Program-made: the position numbers and the translations under genes
Shown here: in pieces, positions 33,843 to 44,015 of the stretch
Layout: the number at the start of each line of letters is the position of its first letter
How positions within the stretch are numbered: the stretch's first letter is position 1
Assembly (NCBI GenBank): GCA_016179105.1
Contig: JACOSB010000114.1
Coordinates: 1 to 64,000 of the forward strand
Length of the DNA stretch: 64,000 nucleotides
Origin: Candidatus Acetothermia bacterium
GTDB taxonomy: Bacteria; Bipolaricaulota; Bipolaricaulia; RBG-16-55-9; DRXL01
Direction of reading: 5' to 3'
Notes under the pieces: model-generated
Told to the model about the DNA's origin: nothing
The model's input: the letters and a program-made list of their open reading frames with translations, nothing else
Databases searched by the model: none

Positions 33843-33926
33843 GTGCCTACTCAAGCCATGGGCGAAGAGCTTTTGTGACAACCTTTATGTACAATGACCG
33901 ACGTTTCCAAAAATGAAGGAGGGGCC

Positions 33927-36900
33927 ATGCACCACGTGAGCCAATCGCTGGTCTTTAAGATTTTCGTTCTCATAGGATTGCTAGGGCTAATCGGCCCTGG
34001 GATTACTTTTGTGGGGCTCTTGGGACAGACCATCGTTCCCAGCAGGCCCGAGCTACACCCGGTTTCTTTGGCATTGATCCCTCCTTCCCCGGTCCCGTTC
34101 GGGCAGCGCGTCCAGGTGAAAACAATGATTGAAAACCGCGGCCCACGCGGCGTTAGCGGTGCCGGTCCTTTCTCAGTCGGCTTCTATTATCGGCTGGTGG
34201 GAGATCCGCAATGGACACTTTTCACGCAAGAACGCTTTGATCTTGGGCTCAAAGCTAACGAGATGGCCGAACGCACGGTGGAGTTCCAGACGTCTTTGCT
34301 CAAGGATCGCCTGGCCGAAAAATCCGAGGTATTGATCGAGGTCCGCGTACTCGTCGATTTTAAGAGCGAGGTCGAAGAGCAAGATGAACGCAACAATCAA
34401 TTGATCGCTGGGCTCAGCGTACGCACGTCTATATTCGGACTCCCTGACTTGAGCCCGGTCAATATTCGCTTTGAGTGTGCCTCGCTGCCGCCGGGCGGTC
34501 AGCCCGCCCCGACCCCATCGATCTCTCCGTGCCCGGTCGTCGGCTTAGTGCGCAACATCGATTTTATTCTCATCACGACGAACATCGCCAACTTGGGCGA
34601 TACAGTCTATGAAGGCAGCTTCACCACGCACATCACGGCCTGCCGCGTCGTGGACCCACGGACTGGCGCCTGTGCACCCATCCAGCAACGAAACCCGAAT
34701 GAGACGTTCGAAGAGGACGCCAAGGGCTCTGAGACCGTCGAGACCATTGAAAGACAAATCCCCGGTGAAAGATACATCCCCGCATGCAGTCAGTCGGCTA
34801 AATGCGTGGCGCGCCAAGTGAGCTTCCCAGTAGCGCTGAAAGATGGTAAGACGCGACCGGCGGGCACGTATCGCATCGAAGTTCAGGTGTCTCCCAAGGG
34901 CGTCAAAGAAATGGATATGGCCAATAATACGCTGGTTGCGTTCTACACGCTCGCTGGACCGGAGTTGCGCCCCACCAGTCTGGAATTCCGTCCCTCCGTG
35001 CTCAGGGAGCATGGGTCTATTGATGTCTTCGTGACAGTGATCAACGAGGGCTCGAGCAACGTCGAGACCCCATTCGACGTACAGTTCACAGCAAACGGAA
35101 AAACCTTTGCTGATGTAGTCCAGACCCGTCTCAACGTCGGAGAGCCGATGATATTGAATGCGAAGCTCGAGGCAGATAAGGCTGCTTTGAAGCGTGACCA
35201 GATTATCACAATCCAAGTCATGGTCGATCCCAACAACACAGTGAGTGAGCTCGACGAAACGAATAACATAATTGAGTCTAAGCTCACCGTGCTCGAAGCA
35301 AAGCCGCAGTTGGCCGAGTTGCACCCGAAAGCATTGCTCTTGAACCCTCTCTCTCCGGTGGAAAAAGAGCGGTTGGGCAGCACATTCCCTCAGTTTGGTC
35401 AACGCCAGATCGTCCGTCTGACGGCCCAAATTCTGAACACGGGCTCCGTCAGAGCTGAAAATGTCCACGTCTGCTTCGCTTACCGAGCGACTACGAAAGC
35501 CGTTTGGCAGCGCCTTGAGTCGCCCAATTGTGCTATCAACAATCCCGATCCGCCGCTCAATTTGGATGCGAATATGCCCGCCGACAGCAAGGGCGTCGAT
35601 TCGTATGCTGATTTGAATGTCGATGCCCTCAATCCGGGTTCTTATGAAATTCGAGCCGTGGTCGACCCACCCTCCGACGATGTTCTCGATCAAGAGTGCA
35701 AACCTGCAGACATCCGATTCCGCGGGCAAATCGCGGAATTGGATGAGTGCAACAACCAGATTGTAACACACATGCTCTTGCTCGCTCCGATCAAGCCGGA
35801 CCTGCGCGTTAGCTCGAAGGTCACTCCTCTTGAGGGAGTGAATTTTGGAAGTCCGTTCACTCTGAAGGCGATCGTCACGAACGAGGGTGATGACCTGGTC
35901 AATATACCGTTCAAAGTGCAATTCACTGCGCAACGCTTGGAGGATGCGTTCAACTTTTCGGGCCTGCAACCACCCCCACTGCCGCAAGTGCTCGACACGA
36001 AAACGATTTTCGCGAGCAAAGATCAACCGTTCCTACCCGGCCAGTCCCGCGAAGTGACCATCACCGTCGCGACCGGAGAAACCCCACCGCTGACCCCCGG
36101 CGTTCCTTTTATCGGCAGACCGGGTGGCTATAACTTCGTGATCGTCGTCGACCCCGACAACGTGGTCGATGAGCAAGATGAAACCAATAATACTACTGCG
36201 ACTGCTGGTCCTGCGCCGGTTGGACCGGTCGTCAATCCCAACCAAGTCGGCGGATATGCCATCAATGGACCGGATTTAGCGGTTAATCAGAACGGCATCT
36301 GCGTGCGGCCGGCAGCGACTCCCGCTCCTGCTCCTACAGTGCAACCAGGTTTCTGCAACGGCTTGAAGCTCCAGTATGCTGCAGGCGAGTCGTTCAGCGT
36401 GACGGTCGATGTCCAGAACATTGGCGTCCAGATTGCTCGCTCATACAATGTGCAGATCCGTCTCTGCCGCGGGCAGACACAATGTGACGGCGCAGCCAGG
36501 TTCGTAACCAAGACTGTGGCAATGCCCCCGCTGGAGAATGGCCGCATGGCAACGACACCGGCCCAAGAATTCAGCACCAAAGGTCTCTCACCCGGCAATT
36601 ACCAGATCGTGGTCGACGTCGACCCGCCGACTCCCGATAAACCCTTCGGCAATGTGCTAGAGCAGTTAGAGAAGCTAAATAACACGAGCGCGCTGGCGCT
36701 CCAGATTACTGCGGGAAGCGACTCCGGCGATGTACCCCCAATACCCCCCCCACCGCCGAGTCCGTGCGTGGCACCGGAAACGCCTAACGTCGATCTGAGA
36801 GTGAGTTCGTTGCAGTTCAACCCTGATGTGGAGAGCATCGCGCGTGCAGGGAAAGTGCAAGTGCTCGCCACAGTTCAGAACTGTGGCGGCCAATCGGTGC

Positions 36901-37154
36901 CCAATGCCTTCCAAGTGCAGTTTGGCTACCGTCGTGTTGACAGCTCGCAGATCGTGTACTTTTCCGTCCAGACGGTCCAACCGCTGGGACCTGTTCAGGC
37001 AACCACAATACAAGCCGACTTCGACGCTTTCACACTGGATGTAGCTCCTGGTGACTACGACATTATTGTTACCGTCGATACATTGAACGAAGTGCGTGAG
37101 GACGATAAGAACAACAACCAAGCCGCGAGGCGTATCACGGTGCGCAACCGATAA
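33927..37154 (+). CDS. Secreted protein built of about seven CARDB repeats
   Basis: 1075 residues from ATG 33927, chosen for the SD AAGGAGG; the reading from 33894 adds 11 residues with no SD. N-terminal signal sequence (VFKIFVLIGLLGLIGPGITF). Seven tandem CARDB-type modules can be picked out by their opening P-D/E-L motifs (PELHPVSLALIPPSP, PDLSPVNIRF, PELRPTSLEFRPS, AELHPKALLLNPLSP, PDLRVSSKVTP, PDLAVNQNG, VDLRVSSLQFNPD) and closing V.E.DE.NN patterns. A Pro-rich linker (IPPPPPSPCVAPET) precedes the last. No membrane anchor at the C-terminus, so it is probably released or bound through another component. Confidence 0.8.
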   Translation: MHHVSQSLVFKIFVLIGLLGLIGPGITFVGLLGQTIVPSRPELHPVSLALIPPSPVPFGQRVQVKTMIENRGPRGVSGAGPFSVGFYYRLVGDPQWTLFTQERFDLGLKANEMAERTVEFQTSLLKDRLAEKSEVLIEVRVLVDFKSEVEEQDERNNQLIAGLSVRTSIFGLPDLSPVNIRFECASLPPGGQPAPTPSISPCPVVGLVRNIDFILITTNIANLGDTVYEGSFTTHITACRVVDPRTGACAPIQQRNPNETFEEDAKGSETVETIERQIPGERYIPACSQSAKCVARQVSFPVALKDGKTRPAGTYRIEVQVSPKGVKEMDMANNTLVAFYTLAGPELRPTSLEFRPSVLREHGSIDVFVTVINEGSSNVETPFDVQFTANGKTFADVVQTRLNVGEPMILNAKLEADKAALKRDQIITIQVMVDPNNTVSELDETNNIIESKLTVLEAKPQLAELHPKALLLNPLSPVEKERLGSTFPQFGQRQIVRLTAQILNTGSVRAENVHVCFAYRATTKAVWQRLESPNCAINNPDPPLNLDANMPADSKGVDSYADLNVDALNPGSYEIRAVVDPPSDDVLDQECKPADIRFRGQIAELDECNNQIVTHMLLLAPIKPDLRVSSKVTPLEGVNFGSPFTLKAIVTNEGDDLVNIPFKVQFTAQRLEDAFNFSGLQPPPLPQVLDTKTIFASKDQPFLPGQSREVTITVATGETPPLTPGVPFIGRPGGYNFVIVVDPDNVVDEQDETNNTTATAGPAPVGPVVNPNQVGGYAINGPDLAVNQNGICVRPAATPAPAPTVQPGFCNGLKLQYAAGESFSVTVDVQNIGVQIARSYNVQIRLCRGQTQCDGAARFVTKTVAMPPLENGRMATTPAQEFSTKGLSPGNYQIVVDVDPPTPDKPFGNVLEQLEKLNNTSALALQITAGSDSGDVPPIPPPPPSPCVAPETPNVDLRVSSLQFNPDVESIARAGKVQVLATVQNCGGQSVPNAFQVQFGYRRVDSSQIVYFSVQTVQPLGPVQATTIQADFDAFTLDVAPGDYDIIVTVDTLNEVREDDKNNNQAARRITVRNR

Positions 37155-39183: not shown

Positions 39184-39810
39184 CTATATCCCGAGTAAGA
39201 ACGGGATCAAGAAGATCAGCAGAATCTGGAAGAAGATGATCTGCAAGAAGAGCAGAATGTTCGGGATTCCATTTCCGCTCGGTTGATCTGACTTGCCCGA
39301 GATGGAAAAGGTGGTCGACTGGCTCCCGTAAAAGATCTTAAAGTTTTTGGCGATGTCCAGACTGGCGTTCAGGGACAAAACTCCTGCACTGACGGTCTGG
39401 GGCTGGAGCGGCCCCGGCGCAAAGTCGTTCGTAATCGGCGTAACCGTAGTGATCGAAAATTTCTGCCCATTCTGCTGGAATGAGATCTGGAACGGATCGA
39501 AGGTTGAAACTTGGCTGGGGGCCACGAGCGTCAGCAAGGCTTTTTGGCCGACGAAGGCAGCAACGGCTTGCTTGAGCTCGGGTTTGAGCGAGCTTTGCAT
39601 CATTTTTTCGTTAATCAACGCGAAAGCCAGAATAAACTGCCCGGTATCCCCGTTAATGAAGAGGACCGCGAGCTGGTTGGGGTCGAGGCCTGTTTTTTGG
39701 CTGATCTGCTGTTTGGCCAACTCTTCCAGAGATGACTGAGCGAATGCCGGAGCGCCCGCCGTGAGAACCACGGCCAGCAAGATGAGTGTAGCTAGAAGTT
39801 TCTTGTACAT
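39184..39810 (-). CDS. Secreted protein with C-terminal membrane anchor
   Basis: 208 residues from ATG 39810, with GGAGG 5 bases before it (four extra residues are possible upstream). Signal peptide about 1-24 (KKLLATLILLAVVLTAGAPAFA). Mature region about 25-170 is alpha/beta with no Cys. The C-terminus is a membrane helix (NILLFLQIIFFQILLIFLIPF) ending LLGI, so the protein is probably held at the outer face of the inner membrane. Family not recognised. It lies downstream of a 26-residue membrane peptide on the same strand and may share its promoter (40016-40044). Converges with the permease gene with a 2-base gap. Confidence 0.65.
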   Translation of the reverse strand: MYKKLLATLILLAVVLTAGAPAFAQSSLEELAKQQISQKTGLDPNQLAVLFINGDTGQFILAFALINEKMMQSSLKPELKQAVAAFVGQKALLTLVAPSQVSTFDPFQISFQQNGQKFSITTVTPITNDFAPGPLQPQTVSAGVLSLNASLDIAKNFKIFYGSQSTTFSISGKSDQPSGNGIPNILLFLQIIFFQILLIFLIPFLLGI

Positions 39811-39902
39811 GGAAGCCTCCAAGAGACGAGGGCCTCAAAAGGACTTACTCAGAGAGTTCGTGCACGATTGAGGCCCGATAGAATATCAAGACTCCTCGAT
39901 TT

Positions 39903-40015: not shown

Positions 40016-40044
40016 ATTATAAGGTGGTTTGGCTCAAAAGACAA
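40016..40044 (-). promoter_or_regulatory. Promoter of the 26-residue peptide and 39184-39810
   Basis: Minus strand: TTGTCT (40039-40044), 17-base spacer, TATAAT (40016-40021). The -10 is perfect and the -35 is four of six. Confidence 0.65.
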
Positions 40045-40077
40045 GGGGCAAAAACTCATATTGAAGCGCTGTTTTAA

Positions 40078-41136
40078 CGCCGAACTTTCCTGAAAATCGC
40101 CGGGGTCTTCACAGCAGGCCTGTGGGCCGGCGTAAATCTAGCCCGCGCCGCCAGGCCACTCGTAATCGATTTGCCCTCGATGCAAGACAGCGTGCCGCTG
40201 CTCTTCGGTGCTGACAAGGGAATCTTCTCCAAGGACGACCTGAGTATCATCGCGTTTGACCGAATCGAAGAGAGCGATGCGGCTCTCTTGGCCAAGCAAG
40301 TCGACGGCCGCGTGACCGACATCACAACAGCTCTGTTGCTGGTGGCGGCCGACTTCCCGATCGTCGTCGTCAGTACGGCTTTTGAGTTAGTACCCAATCC
40401 CAGCGGGACTCCCCAGGCCCGCAACATGATCATCCTGTCCAAAGACAATTCGGTCCAAAAGCTCGAGGATATTCCCAAATATCGCGAGAGAACCGGAAAG
40501 CCGCCGCTCCGCGTCTTGGAACGCTCGGACATCATGTATCACACGGATCAGTTGCTGCGCGCGAGCGGCTACAAGGGTAATTTGGATGATCTCTATGAGA
40601 CTATTGGCGGCGGATTCGGAGCGCTTCAGCAACAAGCTGAGCAATTGGGCATCGGCCTTGAGGCGCTAAAAGCTGTGAATTTACCGGGCGTCCATGCTGA
40701 CCTCGCTCGATTTACTCGCACGGCCAACAAAGTGCCCGTCTATACGCTGACCGAGTTCGAGAGCGAGAAAAAACTGATGCCCACGGTGATGATCTTCCGT
40801 AAAGAAATCGTCGATCGACGGCTGGATGACCTGAAGAGATTTTATGCCAAGTTCGCCGACTCCGTCGATGCGGCGAACAAGAGCAGCCGCACCGATCTGA
40901 TCAACACACTCCTAAAGGTCGCGCTCAAACAGTATTTCGAGACTCTGAAACCGAGCGAGCTGGGACTCCCCGCCGGCTGGGAGAATGCGGTACGTATCCC
41001 CGTCTTCCCCAAGCCGCGCGCGCTCAAAGCCGAAGAGCTGAATACCATCCATGATTGGGCCACGGGAAGACGCTACCTCCAGACGAGAGTCAGTTACGAC
41101 CAAGCCGTTTACCCCGGCATTTTCGGAAAAGCCTAA
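40078..41136 (+). CDS. NMT1/SsuA-like ABC transporter substrate-binding protein with defective start
   Basis: Periplasmic binding protein for a small organic substrate (thiamine-precursor, sulfonate or nitrate type). The frame is open from 40078 and reads RRTFLKIAGVFTAG, a clear twin-arginine signal, but a TAA precedes the first Arg and no start codon lies between. A single missing A at 40076-40077 would join a TTG at 40061, giving MKRCFKRRTFLKIAG. The first ATG (40171) is well inside the mature protein, so starting there would lose the signal. The mature part (LPSMQDSVPLLFGADKGIFS, VVSTAFELVPNPSG, FRKEIVDRRLDDLKRFYAKF) fits the family. The next gene starts 15 bases later. Confidence 0.75.
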   Translation, partial: RRTFLKIAGVFTAGLWAGVNLARAARPLVIDLPSMQDSVPLLFGADKGIFSKDDLSIIAFDRIEESDAALLAKQVDGRVTDITTALLLVAADFPIVVVSTAFELVPNPSGTPQARNMIILSKDNSVQKLEDIPKYRERTGKPPLRVLERSDIMYHTDQLLRASGYKGNLDDLYETIGGGFGALQQQAEQLGIGLEALKAVNLPGVHADLARFTRTANKVPVYTLTEFESEKKLMPTVMIFRKEIVDRRLDDLKRFYAKFADSVDAANKSSRTDLINTLLKVALKQYFETLKPSELGLPAGWENAVRIPVFPKPRALKAEELNTIHDWATGRRYLQTRVSYDQAVYPGIFGKA

Positions 41137-41151
41137 GCTCACTTCCCCCTC

Positions 41152-42366
41152 ATGATCGAGATCGAGGGATTGCGCATTGAGTATGGAGAAGAAAGCGAAG
41201 CGAAGTCCCTGGCGATCGCTGATCTAAGTCTAAACATCGCCGACGGAGAAAGCGTGGTGATTCTGGGCCCTTCGGGTTCAGGCAAGACGAGCTTCTTGCT
41301 CACACTCGCCGGATTGCTTCAGCCTGTCGCGGGAAGTTTGAAGATCGACAAAACTCCGATTACCGGGCCACGCAACGACATCTCCTTGATTTTGCAAGAC
41401 CTGGGATTGCTGCCTTGGAAGACTGTCTGGAAGAACGCCTCGCTCGGATTTGAGCTGGGAAATATTTCTAAAGAGAATCGACGGCCAAACAGTACTGCCT
41501 CCGACCCAGCGCTTCATCAAGAGTGGGAGAAACGCAAGCGCTCGGTCTCTATCGCTTATCTCTGGCTCACCTTCACTGGTCTCTTTGCAGCGGGGCATCG
41601 ATTCTATCTCGATCGCCCCTTCTCCGGCGCGATGCGAACGATCGGCTTTTGGGTATGGGCTCTTGCGTTCGGAGCGTATGTGATCGATCTCGATACGTAC
41701 TTGAGTGACGAGCTGAATAAACCCTTCCGCGAAATTTTTTCTCTGATGACCAACGCTGATGGATGGGCCCAATTGATCTGGGGTGGAGAGCAATTTCACT
41801 TCAGTCGTTTACTGCTCTTCACGGTCAGCCTTGTTTTGGGCAGCTATCTGCTCTTGCGCTGGCTGAGAGATTTCTTTGAGCTATCCGAACAAGTACGCCA
41901 AGTGAATACCCTCATTCAGCAGCAAGTACATCGCGTCAAGCCCATTCTGGATGAGCTGGGGCTTCAGGGTTTCTACAATCGTTTTCCATCTCAGCTCTCC
42001 GGCGGCGAACGTCAGCGCGTCGCGATTGCCCGCGCCTTGGCCGGCGAGCCGCGCGTCTTATTGATGGATGAACCGCTTTCAGCGCTCGACGCGTTCAACC
42101 GTGAGCGCATCCAAGATCAGCTGGTGGCCCTGTGGCAAAAGCACAAATTAACGCAAGTCATCGTCACGCACGATGTCGAAGAAGCTGTCTATATGGGCCA
42201 ACGGATAGTAGTGCTAACGGATCGACCCGCGCGCATTCGCGAGATTGTCGAAAACCCGAAGATGGGCACGTCGGGCTGGCGCGCGAGCGACGCATTCTAC
42301 GCCCAAGCCCGACATCTGAGGGAGTTGTTGACCGATGCAAGACCTGTGGAAGCGCATTCCTCTTAA
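41152..42366 (+). CDS. ABC transporter ATPase (SsuB/TauB-like) with an inserted TM2-like membrane segment
   Basis: 404 residues; family members have about 250. Residues 1-110 are a normal ATPase start with Walker A GPSGSGKT (39-46) and Q-loop LQDLGLLPWKT (81-91). Residues about 112-260 are foreign. KRKR is followed by a hydrophobic pair with the loop AAGHRFYLDRPFSGAM (146-161), closely resembling the TM2 domain GxHRFYLGR hallmark. A third helix follows at about 219-238 and then a charged helix. The ATPase resumes with ILDELGLQGFYNRFPSQLSG, signature LSGGERQ (282-288), Walker B VLLMDEP (302-308) and H-loop His340. All catalytic motifs survive in one unbroken frame. Overlaps the permease gene by 32 bases. 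Confidence 0.85.
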   Translation: MIEIEGLRIEYGEESEAKSLAIADLSLNIADGESVVILGPSGSGKTSFLLTLAGLLQPVAGSLKIDKTPITGPRNDISLILQDLGLLPWKTVWKNASLGFELGNISKENRRPNSTASDPALHQEWEKRKRSVSIAYLWLTFTGLFAAGHRFYLDRPFSGAMRTIGFWVWALAFGAYVIDLDTYLSDELNKPFREIFSLMTNADGWAQLIWGGEQFHFSRLLLFTVSLVLGSYLLLRWLRDFFELSEQVRQVNTLIQQQVHRVKPILDELGLQGFYNRFPSQLSGGERQRVAIARALAGEPRVLLMDEPLSALDAFNRERIQDQLVALWQKHKLTQVIVTHDVEEAVYMGQRIVVLTDRPARIREIVENPKMGTSGWRASDAFYAQARHLRELLTDARPVEAHSS

Positions 42367-43150
42367 GCGACGGCAACTGATCGCAAAATTTGCTCTCTAT
42401 GCCGGAAGCATCATCGGACTCTTCGTGATCTGGCAGATCGCCAGCATGATCATTTATGCGATCTATTGGAATAGCGATCAACGCTACTTCACGTACTTTC
42501 TTCCGACGCCGATCAATGCAATAACCAATCTGATCGCTCATCTTCAGCAAATAAGCCTTGGTTTTGGAGCTAGTGCGCTCCGGATGCTCGTAAGCATTTT
42601 GCTGGCCATCCTCATTGGTACGCCCATTGGACTCGTGATCGGTCATGAAAAGATTGCCGATCGTCTTTTCTCGCCGCTCCTTTATATCAGTAACCCCATC
42701 CCCAAGGTCGTCTTCCTGCCCTTATTGTTCATCTTCTTCGGAATCGGTAACAGTCCCAAAATCATCCTCATCACACTCCTACTAGTATTCCCCGTAATCC
42801 TCGCAGCACGGGATGCTGCCAAAAGTATTCACAAAACATATCTGCTCAGCGTGCGAAGCCTCAACGCGACGCGAGGACAGATTTATCGTCATGTCGTACT
42901 GCCTGCGTGTCTCCCGGCCATACTCACGACCGTGCGCCTGAGCATTGGCTTTGCCACGGTGGGACTCGCGATTACAGAGACATGGAATGCCAAAGTTGGT
43001 CTCTGGCTCTATATTCTTAATGCCTCGATACAACATAATGGGTCGGGCGTCTTTGCGGGCATAGTGGCGTTTGCGATTCTTGGATTAATCTTCTACAGCA
43101 TCGTCGATCTCATTGAGCGGTTGGTTTGTCGATGGAGTTACGCGACCTAA
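42335..43150 (+). CDS. ABC transporter permease, SsuC/TauC family
   Basis: 271 residues with six to seven membrane helices. The first is LYAGSIIGLFVIWQIASMII; the BPD_transp_1 domain follows, with helices around ALRMLVSILLAILIGTPIGL, PKVVFLPLLFIFFGIGNSPK, ILITLLLVFPVILAARDAA, and a C-terminal pair. The EAA-type coupling loop reads LNATRGQIYRHVVLPACLPA. It forms the membrane part of the importer with the binding protein at 40078 and the unusual ATPase, overlapping the latter by 32 bases. Family substrates are sulfonates, taurine, nitrate or pyrimidine precursors. Which one cannot be told here; no sulfonatase, nitrate reductase or thiamine gene is nearby. Confidence 0.9.
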   Translation: MQDLWKRIPLKRRQLIAKFALYAGSIIGLFVIWQIASMIIYAIYWNSDQRYFTYFLPTPINAITNLIAHLQQISLGFGASALRMLVSILLAILIGTPIGLVIGHEKIADRLFSPLLYISNPIPKVVFLPLLFIFFGIGNSPKIILITLLLVFPVILAARDAAKSIHKTYLLSVRSLNATRGQIYRHVVLPACLPAILTTVRLSIGFATVGLAITETWNAKVGLWLYILNASIQHNGSGVFAGIVAFAILGLIFYSIVDLIERLVCRWSYAT

Positions 43151-43163
43151 TTGGGGAATGCTT

Positions 43164-44015
43164 ATGAAAATAGATAAAATTCTTCTATTCGCAAACTGGG
43201 ATCACCCCGTTGTGACCCCGCACGTTGATGTGCTCAGAAAGTGGGCGACGGCTCATCAGACCAACCTCTTGTACTCTAACACTCTTGATGAATCTATGAA
43301 GGTTTCAGCAGACTTGGCAGTGAGCATCGGCGGTGATGGGACATTTTTGAAAGCCGCACGCTACGCCGCTCCCCTACAAATTCCCTTGCTCGGCTTCAAT
43401 ACCGGCGCGCTCGGATTTTTACCGCAAACGACGGCTGAAGAGTTAACTGTTGTGCTGCAGCGAGTGCTTGAGGGTCAATTCACCATTGAGGAACGTTCTC
43501 GTTTGGGTGGAGAGTTTGTGAACGCTGAAAACTCGGCGCGACAAGAGTTTTCAGCGCTGAATGAAGTCGTTGTCTCCCACGTGCGCCCAGATCGTTTCAC
43601 AGACATCGAACTCTGGTGCGGCTCTGAATTGATCGCTAGCTATCCGGGCGATGGGGTGATCCTCGCGACTCCGACGGGCTCGACGGCGTATTCGCTCTCG
43701 GCGGGCGGACCGATCGCAGAGCCGGAGCTACCCATTCTTCTTGTCACTCCGCTCGCTTCGCATCAATTAGCGATTCGGCCACTGATCTTAGATGGACATC
43801 GTCCTCTGCGTCTCGTCGCGCGATTTCCTGCGCAGGTGATGGTCGATGGCGAGCGCTTTGGCTCGCTGCAACCGGGCGCAGAAGTCCACATCCGCTCTTC
43901 GCCCTTCAAGACGCGTCTCGTGATTCTTAAGAGCGCTCCCAGCTTCTTCGCGCGACTCGCGCAAAAGCTCAACTGGAGCCAGATTCCTTATCGAAAGAAC
44001 CCACCCGTGCGTTAA
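43164..44015 (+). CDS. nadK: NAD kinase
   Basis: Phosphorylates NAD to NADP. 283 residues from ATG 43164; GGGGA lies 6 bases before it, and the longer reading from 43113 overlaps the permease. Family motifs: SIGGDGTFLKAAR (GGDG with catalytic Asp), NTGALGFLP, LNEVVVSHVRPDRF, and SYPGDGVILATPTGSTAYSLSAGGPI-type substrate loop (the segment around ATPTGSTAYSL). The protein ends in a basic stretch PYRKNPPVR. It follows the ABC importer by 13 bases and may be co-transcribed, though no functional link is obvious. Confidence 0.95.
   Translation: MKIDKILLFANWDHPVVTPHVDVLRKWATAHQTNLLYSNTLDESMKVSADLAVSIGGDGTFLKAARYAAPLQIPLLGFNTGALGFLPQTTAEELTVVLQRVLEGQFTIEERSRLGGEFVNAENSARQEFSALNEVVVSHVRPDRFTDIELWCGSELIASYPGDGVILATPTGSTAYSLSAGGPIAEPELPILLVTPLASHQLAIRPLILDGHRPLRLVARFPAQVMVDGERFGSLQPGAEVHIRSSPFKTRLVILKSAPSFFARLAQKLNWSQIPYRKNPPVR

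Follow-up and report, generated by a model that had tools for sequence, protein, structure and literature searches.

What becomes of the ATPase of an ABC importer when three hydrophobic stretches are placed in the middle of its fold? ABC importer ATPases are treated as soluble proteins, which dock on their permease mainly via coupling helices. The question is raised by a gene at positions 41152-42366 of the window, i.e. the whole stretch of 64,000 nucleotides that was analysed (contig JACOSB010000114.1 of the Candidatus Acetothermia bacterium assembly GCA_016179105.1). A preliminary description of this DNA had proposed that the gene encodes an ABC ATPase with a TM2-like membrane module between the Q-loop and the signature motif.

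The ATPase and its gene cluster

The gene is a single uninterrupted frame of 404 amino acids, according to the ORF listing and translation. It holds a complete set of Walker A, Q-loop, LSGGQ, Walker B and switch histidine, in the expected order and distributed over two parts of the ATPase:

41152..41463, + strand: ATPase part 1, residues 1-104 (ABC_tran and alignment with ordinary ATPases)
41266-41289, + strand: Walker A, residues 39-46, in ATPase part 1
41395-41397, + strand: Q-loop, Q82, in ATPase part 1
41926..42366, + strand: ATPase part 2, residues 259-404 (ABC_tran and alignment)
41995-42015, + strand: LSGGERQ, residues 282-288, in ATPase part 2
42055-42072, + strand: Walker B, residues 302-307, with D306 and E307, in ATPase part 2
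42169-42171, + strand: H340, in ATPase part 2

The Pfam model ABC_tran (PF00005) matched the protein with a total of 105 bits against a cut-off of 25, split over two stretches. In an alignment with 12 ordinary ATPases, G39-P-S-G42, G44, K45, Q82 and LSGG 282-285 were invariant, and so were D306, E307 and H340. Translation, ABC_tran and alignment all bear out the unbroken 404-residue frame with its full set of ATPase motifs, as first described, with Walker B now placed at residues 302-307. The nearest named ATPase models were those of the taurine and SaoA ATPases, each far under its cut-off. Judged by its sequence, the frame is a complete ABC ATPase of the NitT/TauT type (TauB/NrtD/CmpD-like), carrying an insert of ~154 residues.

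The neighbouring genes point to the same type of importer:

40171..41136, + strand: substrate-binding protein, NMT1/THI5-like via homologues (alignment with NMT1-matching homologues; the start is probably further upstream)
42335..43150, + strand: permease, TauC/SaoP-like, full length (BPD_transp_1, 87.6 bits; alignment with relatives)
43113..44015, + strand: NAD kinase (Pfam and gene order), a gene conserved at this place in most of the phylum's families that were examined

With an NMT1-like binding protein and a TauC-like permease, the cluster has the composition of a NitT/TauT importer, whose operons combine the same two components. Cluster and sequence thus agree with the NMT1/Ssu-type importer suggested earlier, more precisely an NMT1/Tau-Ssu type, while every named equivalog model for the importer scored under its cut-off. 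A fusion of ATPase and permease, which had also been suggested, is not supported: the permease is a separate, complete gene beside the ATPase, and its length is the same as in relatives with an uninserted ATPase.

Families f2, f4, f5, f6, f7 and f9 share the order binding protein, ATPase, permease and NAD kinase, and in family f3 the NAD kinase is not adjacent. The succession of permease and NAD kinase was seen in most of the Bipolaricaulota families examined (42335-44015 in the window; L141, L143, L144, L146, L148, L149 and L150).

In the window, the binding protein has a Tat-type signal (RRTFLKIAGVF..., 40040-40171) that directly follows a stop codon, with no in-frame start before it. Start and signal are intact in homologous binding proteins. 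The interruption may be real, or it may come from an error in sequencing or assembly.

The insertion and its likeness to TM2 domains

The following features were delimited in the insertion:

41464..41925, + strand: insertion, residues 105-258 (alignments, spacing, and a profile search of 100 genomes of the phylum)
41536..41664, + strand: TM2-like segment, consisting of helix 1 and the GHRFYLDRPFS loop (PF05154 sub-threshold in all 10 family members)
41593-41625, + strand: GHRFYLDRPFS loop, residues 148-158, in the TM2-like segment

Alignment to uninserted relatives places the insert at residues ~105-258 (~154 residues), between the Q-loop and the signature motif. An insertion had been described at 112-260; its presence stands, and those borders were slightly narrower than the aligned ones. 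The three hydrophobic stretches reported for it were found at residues ~131-148, 157-178 and 217-238.

The likeness to the TM2 domain (PF05154) lies in the first part of the insert. In the window protein, TM2 matched residues 129-170 (E 2.3e-4 at 21.8 bits, with 21.8-23 bits over the searches made, versus a curated cut-off of 27.9), the sole match in the whole draft genome. All ten inserts from the Bipolaricaulota family that carries them matched TM2, with a best E of 5.1e-5, and none of the inserted ATPases reached the curated cut-off in the genome search (top score 26.1 bits versus 27.9). The match covers profile positions 2-40, that is helix 1 and the loop, which reads G-H/Q-R-F-Y-L-D/E and has lost the final G. 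Across the ten inserts, the loop R150-F-Y-L-x-R-P-F-S158 as well as G174, Y176, R236, D240 and N252 are invariant; length varies in the linker preceding helix 1 and in the helix 2-3 loop. The TM2 match in ten of ten inserts and the common loop residues (R150-F-Y-L and R155-P-F-S) therefore indicate a likeness beyond chance. Because the matches are sub-threshold, we call the insert TM2-like and not a proven TM2 member; the loop proposed earlier is there, at 148-158.

Like TM2 proteins, the insert has a basic flank, a hydrophobic helix and a G-x-H/Q-R-F-Y-L loop, but an extra helix and loop break up or take the place of the second half that TM2 proteins usually have. The second TM2 helix, ending in W-x-x-D, is not contiguous with the loop in the insert. 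Compared by profile with TM2 proteins from its own phylum, the insert aligned over the first half alone (probability 56%). Appending the end of helix 3 to the first half carried the TM2 match to the profile end in two out of three members and raised the score by 0.7-1.9 bits. The insert may be a TM2 domain that an extra helix has divided. Furthermore, TM2 proteins are small membrane proteins, whereas the insert is embedded in an ATPase. The second helix of a free-standing TM2 protein from this phylum (L056:1261-1722, - strand) ends in WWLVDAFRVPGLVKEHN, similar to the helix 3 end RLVYDLFTMPRQIREAN. A search of viral contigs for TM2 relatives returned eight loci.

Distribution and origin of the insertion

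Among 100 genomes of the phylum that were searched, the insert profile was found in all ten of one Bipolaricaulota family, spanning three genera, and in none of the other 90. All ten inserts are in frame and at the same site, between 'KNASL' and 'VKPxLDxLGL' in each of the extracted proteins. Searching with the protein across 60 genomes, that of the window and those of its relatives, yielded matches over nearly the full length, insertion included (51-57% identity), in eight of the nine other family genomes; in the ninth, the match was split in two inside a single open frame. When 84,980 species genomes were scanned by pattern, a method sensitive to fairly close relatives only, nine loci came back, all from Candidatus Bipolaricaulota or Acetothermia MAGs of varied isolates and assemblies, and none outside Bipolaricaulota. 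The 72,556 plasmid records gave 0 matches.

The spacing between LLPWKTV and LS[GE]G is bimodal, with 169-201 residues in the inserted family versus 36-44 in other families. Other families of the phylum have the ATPase without the insert inside the same cluster of binding protein, ATPase, permease and NAD kinase, and because this gene order is kept, the uninserted ATPases are orthologues in place. In a tree of the ATPases stripped of the insert, the ten inserted ones fall together on one side of a branch with support 100/99. Distribution, synteny and tree, all read from sequence, show that the insertion goes back to a single event in the ancestor of this Bipolaricaulota family.

For within-genus pairs, dN/dS was 0.12-0.23 in the insert, 0.015-0.10 in its TM2-like core and 0.055-0.14 in the ATPase itself, values by which the insert is under purifying selection. 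These values and the open frames rule out a decaying gene. The window genome is a fragmented draft of 166 contigs and the adjoining binding-protein signal is disrupted, as might be expected of an assembly chimera or a gene in decay, but the same in-frame insertion, under purifying selection, occurs in ten separate species genomes. A chimeric join, named at the outset as something that would refute the reading, is excluded because these ten genomes and MAGs from different isolates and assemblies carry the insertion, and the probability left to either artefact is negligible. Homologues with the same insertion exist in every genome of the family that was searched.

Topology, predicted structure and possible function

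AlphaFold2 models were obtained for the window protein and its homologue from L034 (22-sequence alignments, mean pLDDT 84.7 and 84.9). The ATPase fold was kept in both, with pLDDT >90 across most of the ATPase, and the insert of the window protein formed three long helices:

41506..41613, + strand: predicted helix 1, residues 119-154, hydrophobic at 131-148 (AlphaFold model, hydrophobicity)
41617..41712, + strand: predicted helix 2, residues 156-187, marginal hydrophobicity (AlphaFold model, hydrophobicity, charge)
41800..41955, + strand: predicted helix 3, residues 217-268, first half hydrophobic (two AlphaFold models)

The corresponding helices of the homologue were 117-139, 154-184 and 199-250. 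Helix 3 runs unbroken over 52 residues in both models, from a hydrophobic start into the helical-subdomain helix ahead of the signature motif. In both, pLDDT fell below 50 at the hinge that joins helices 1 and 2 and holds the RFYLDRPF loop. Foldseek placed the ATPase model closest to NrtD of the NrtBCD nitrate importer (E 4.9e-20, TM-score by target 0.83) and CmpD of the CmpBCD bicarbonate importer; for the insert, solved structures gave chance-level matches alone (E 0.08 or worse). The catalytic motifs are thus intact by sequence, and the ATPase fold is intact as modelled.

The topology is less straightforward. Both ATPase halves must share the cytoplasm and therefore the number of crossings has to be even; the earlier objection to three full spans is sound. 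All three stretches come out as marginal in many members when scored with our own simplified formula for biological hydrophobicity; polar or charged residues lie within helices 1-3, with R or D in helix 2. The net charge is +1 to +4 in the flank preceding helix 1, +1 in the hinge and -5 to +1 in the helix 2-3 loop, a bias that is weak in some members. Under the positive-inside rule, this mildly favours a helix 2-3 loop outside, with helix 3 running back to the inside and one of helices 1 and 2 not crossing. Judged from sequence and model, one of these first two helices is expected to be re-entrant or peripheral.

We consider the best explanation, with a probability of about 0.6, to be a NitT/TauT-type motor into which a TM2-like module was inserted once and which this module anchors beside a separate permease. 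The ATPase would probably be held in the membrane, close to its channel. The importer would take up a small solute handed over by the NMT1-like protein, and the insert would hold each ATPase in the membrane beside the permease. Since there is one gene each for ATPase and permease, the ATPase is probably a homodimer, which would give two insert anchors per importer. In the models, helix 3 would tie the helical subdomain mechanically to the membrane and might couple membrane and ATPase mechanically at a second place, in addition to the coupling helix of the permease. Anchoring could stabilise the complex or gate hydrolysis. A bolder version, in which the ATPase is an integral membrane protein and a transmembrane helix acts as a rigid lever into the pre-signature helix, as a second coupling route, is a tentative proposal based on the models, with the odds somewhat against it. 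If true, not only the permease but also the membrane module could drive or gate ATP hydrolysis.

Against anchoring stand the marginal hydrophobicity, the odd count of hydrophobic helices, the sub-threshold TM2 match with a profile alignment limited to the first half, the low pLDDT of the hinge and the weak charge bias of some members. The first two, together with the polar and charged residues in helices 1-3, would also suit helices that stay out of the bilayer and form a cytoplasmic or surface bundle that lends stability to the complex of ATPase and permease, at high temperature for instance. Since every member has apolar stretches of 18-22 residues and resembles a membrane domain family, we regard such a bundle as improbable. 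The insertion site lies on the helical subdomain, which we take to face the permease in ABC importers, and hydrophobic helices at this place might pack into the permease and share the translocation path. Yet the permease is complete and unchanged in length, nothing in it needs replacing, and the insert therefore adds to the permease rather than taking over a part of it; a shared path is very unlikely.

More is to be said for a sensor of a membrane or ligand signal, which would set the ATPase active or inactive through helix 3, even if we still hold it to be unlikely. The loop motif is the most constrained part, which would fit a site of binding or signalling, helix 3 runs directly to the signature-motif helix, and the relatives NrtC and CmpC have an extra C-terminal domain with a regulatory role. 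However, neither ligand nor signal is known, and we know of no established sensory function for bacterial TM2 domains. NrtC and CmpC resemble the window ATPase in being importer ATPases of its family and in having an accessory domain, but theirs is soluble and follows the ATPase, whereas that of the window is hydrophobic and interrupts it.

Other known systems share single aspects with the anchored ATPase favoured here. TauB, SsuB, NrtD and CmpD are like its two halves in sequence and modelled fold, but they are uninterrupted, without the hydrophobic insert in the helical subdomain. MacB and P-glycoprotein unite ATPase and membrane domain in one chain, with the membrane domain being the transporter and located at the end of the ATPase domain. 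They likewise tie an ATPase to membrane helices, whereas in the window the module interrupts the ATPase and the permease is separate. Soluble ABC ATPases that serve DNA carry accessory elements inside, namely the UvrA insertions and the coiled coils of SMC/Rad50. The Arm subdomain of the ribosome-serving ABCF proteins is another element inside a soluble ABC ATPase (PMC6723617). All of these accessory elements sit within an ABC ATPase as in the window, but none is a membrane module of a transporter. In the open-licence literature, we found no relevant report of a hydrophobic membrane module within an importer ATPase or of TM2 with ABC transporters; a precedent for an internally membrane-anchored importer ATPase was thus not found there, while insertions in soluble proteins are already known.

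In this family of uncultured bacteria, the normally soluble motor of a nutrient importer has acquired a small domain inside its fold, and this domain probably lies in the membrane. A conserved insertion of single origin in the coupling subdomain is a natural experiment on how the ATPase is held and motion transferred, and the uninserted orthologues in the same gene cluster are ready-made controls.

Two further observations concern other genes. Similar short hydrophobic tails (LIPFLLGI, LFPFLLGI, VPFLLLLLLGL) are found in genes near the binding protein gene in several families (39184-39822, - strand, in the window; L145:3748-4419; L144:9232-9951; L148:4869-5816, - strand; L151:7043-8329), perhaps a common membrane or sorting tail, as their sequences suggest. 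At 33894-37154, an apparently exported protein of 1086 residues contains repeating units that end like 'VDPDNVVDEQDETNN' and look CARDB-like by eye.
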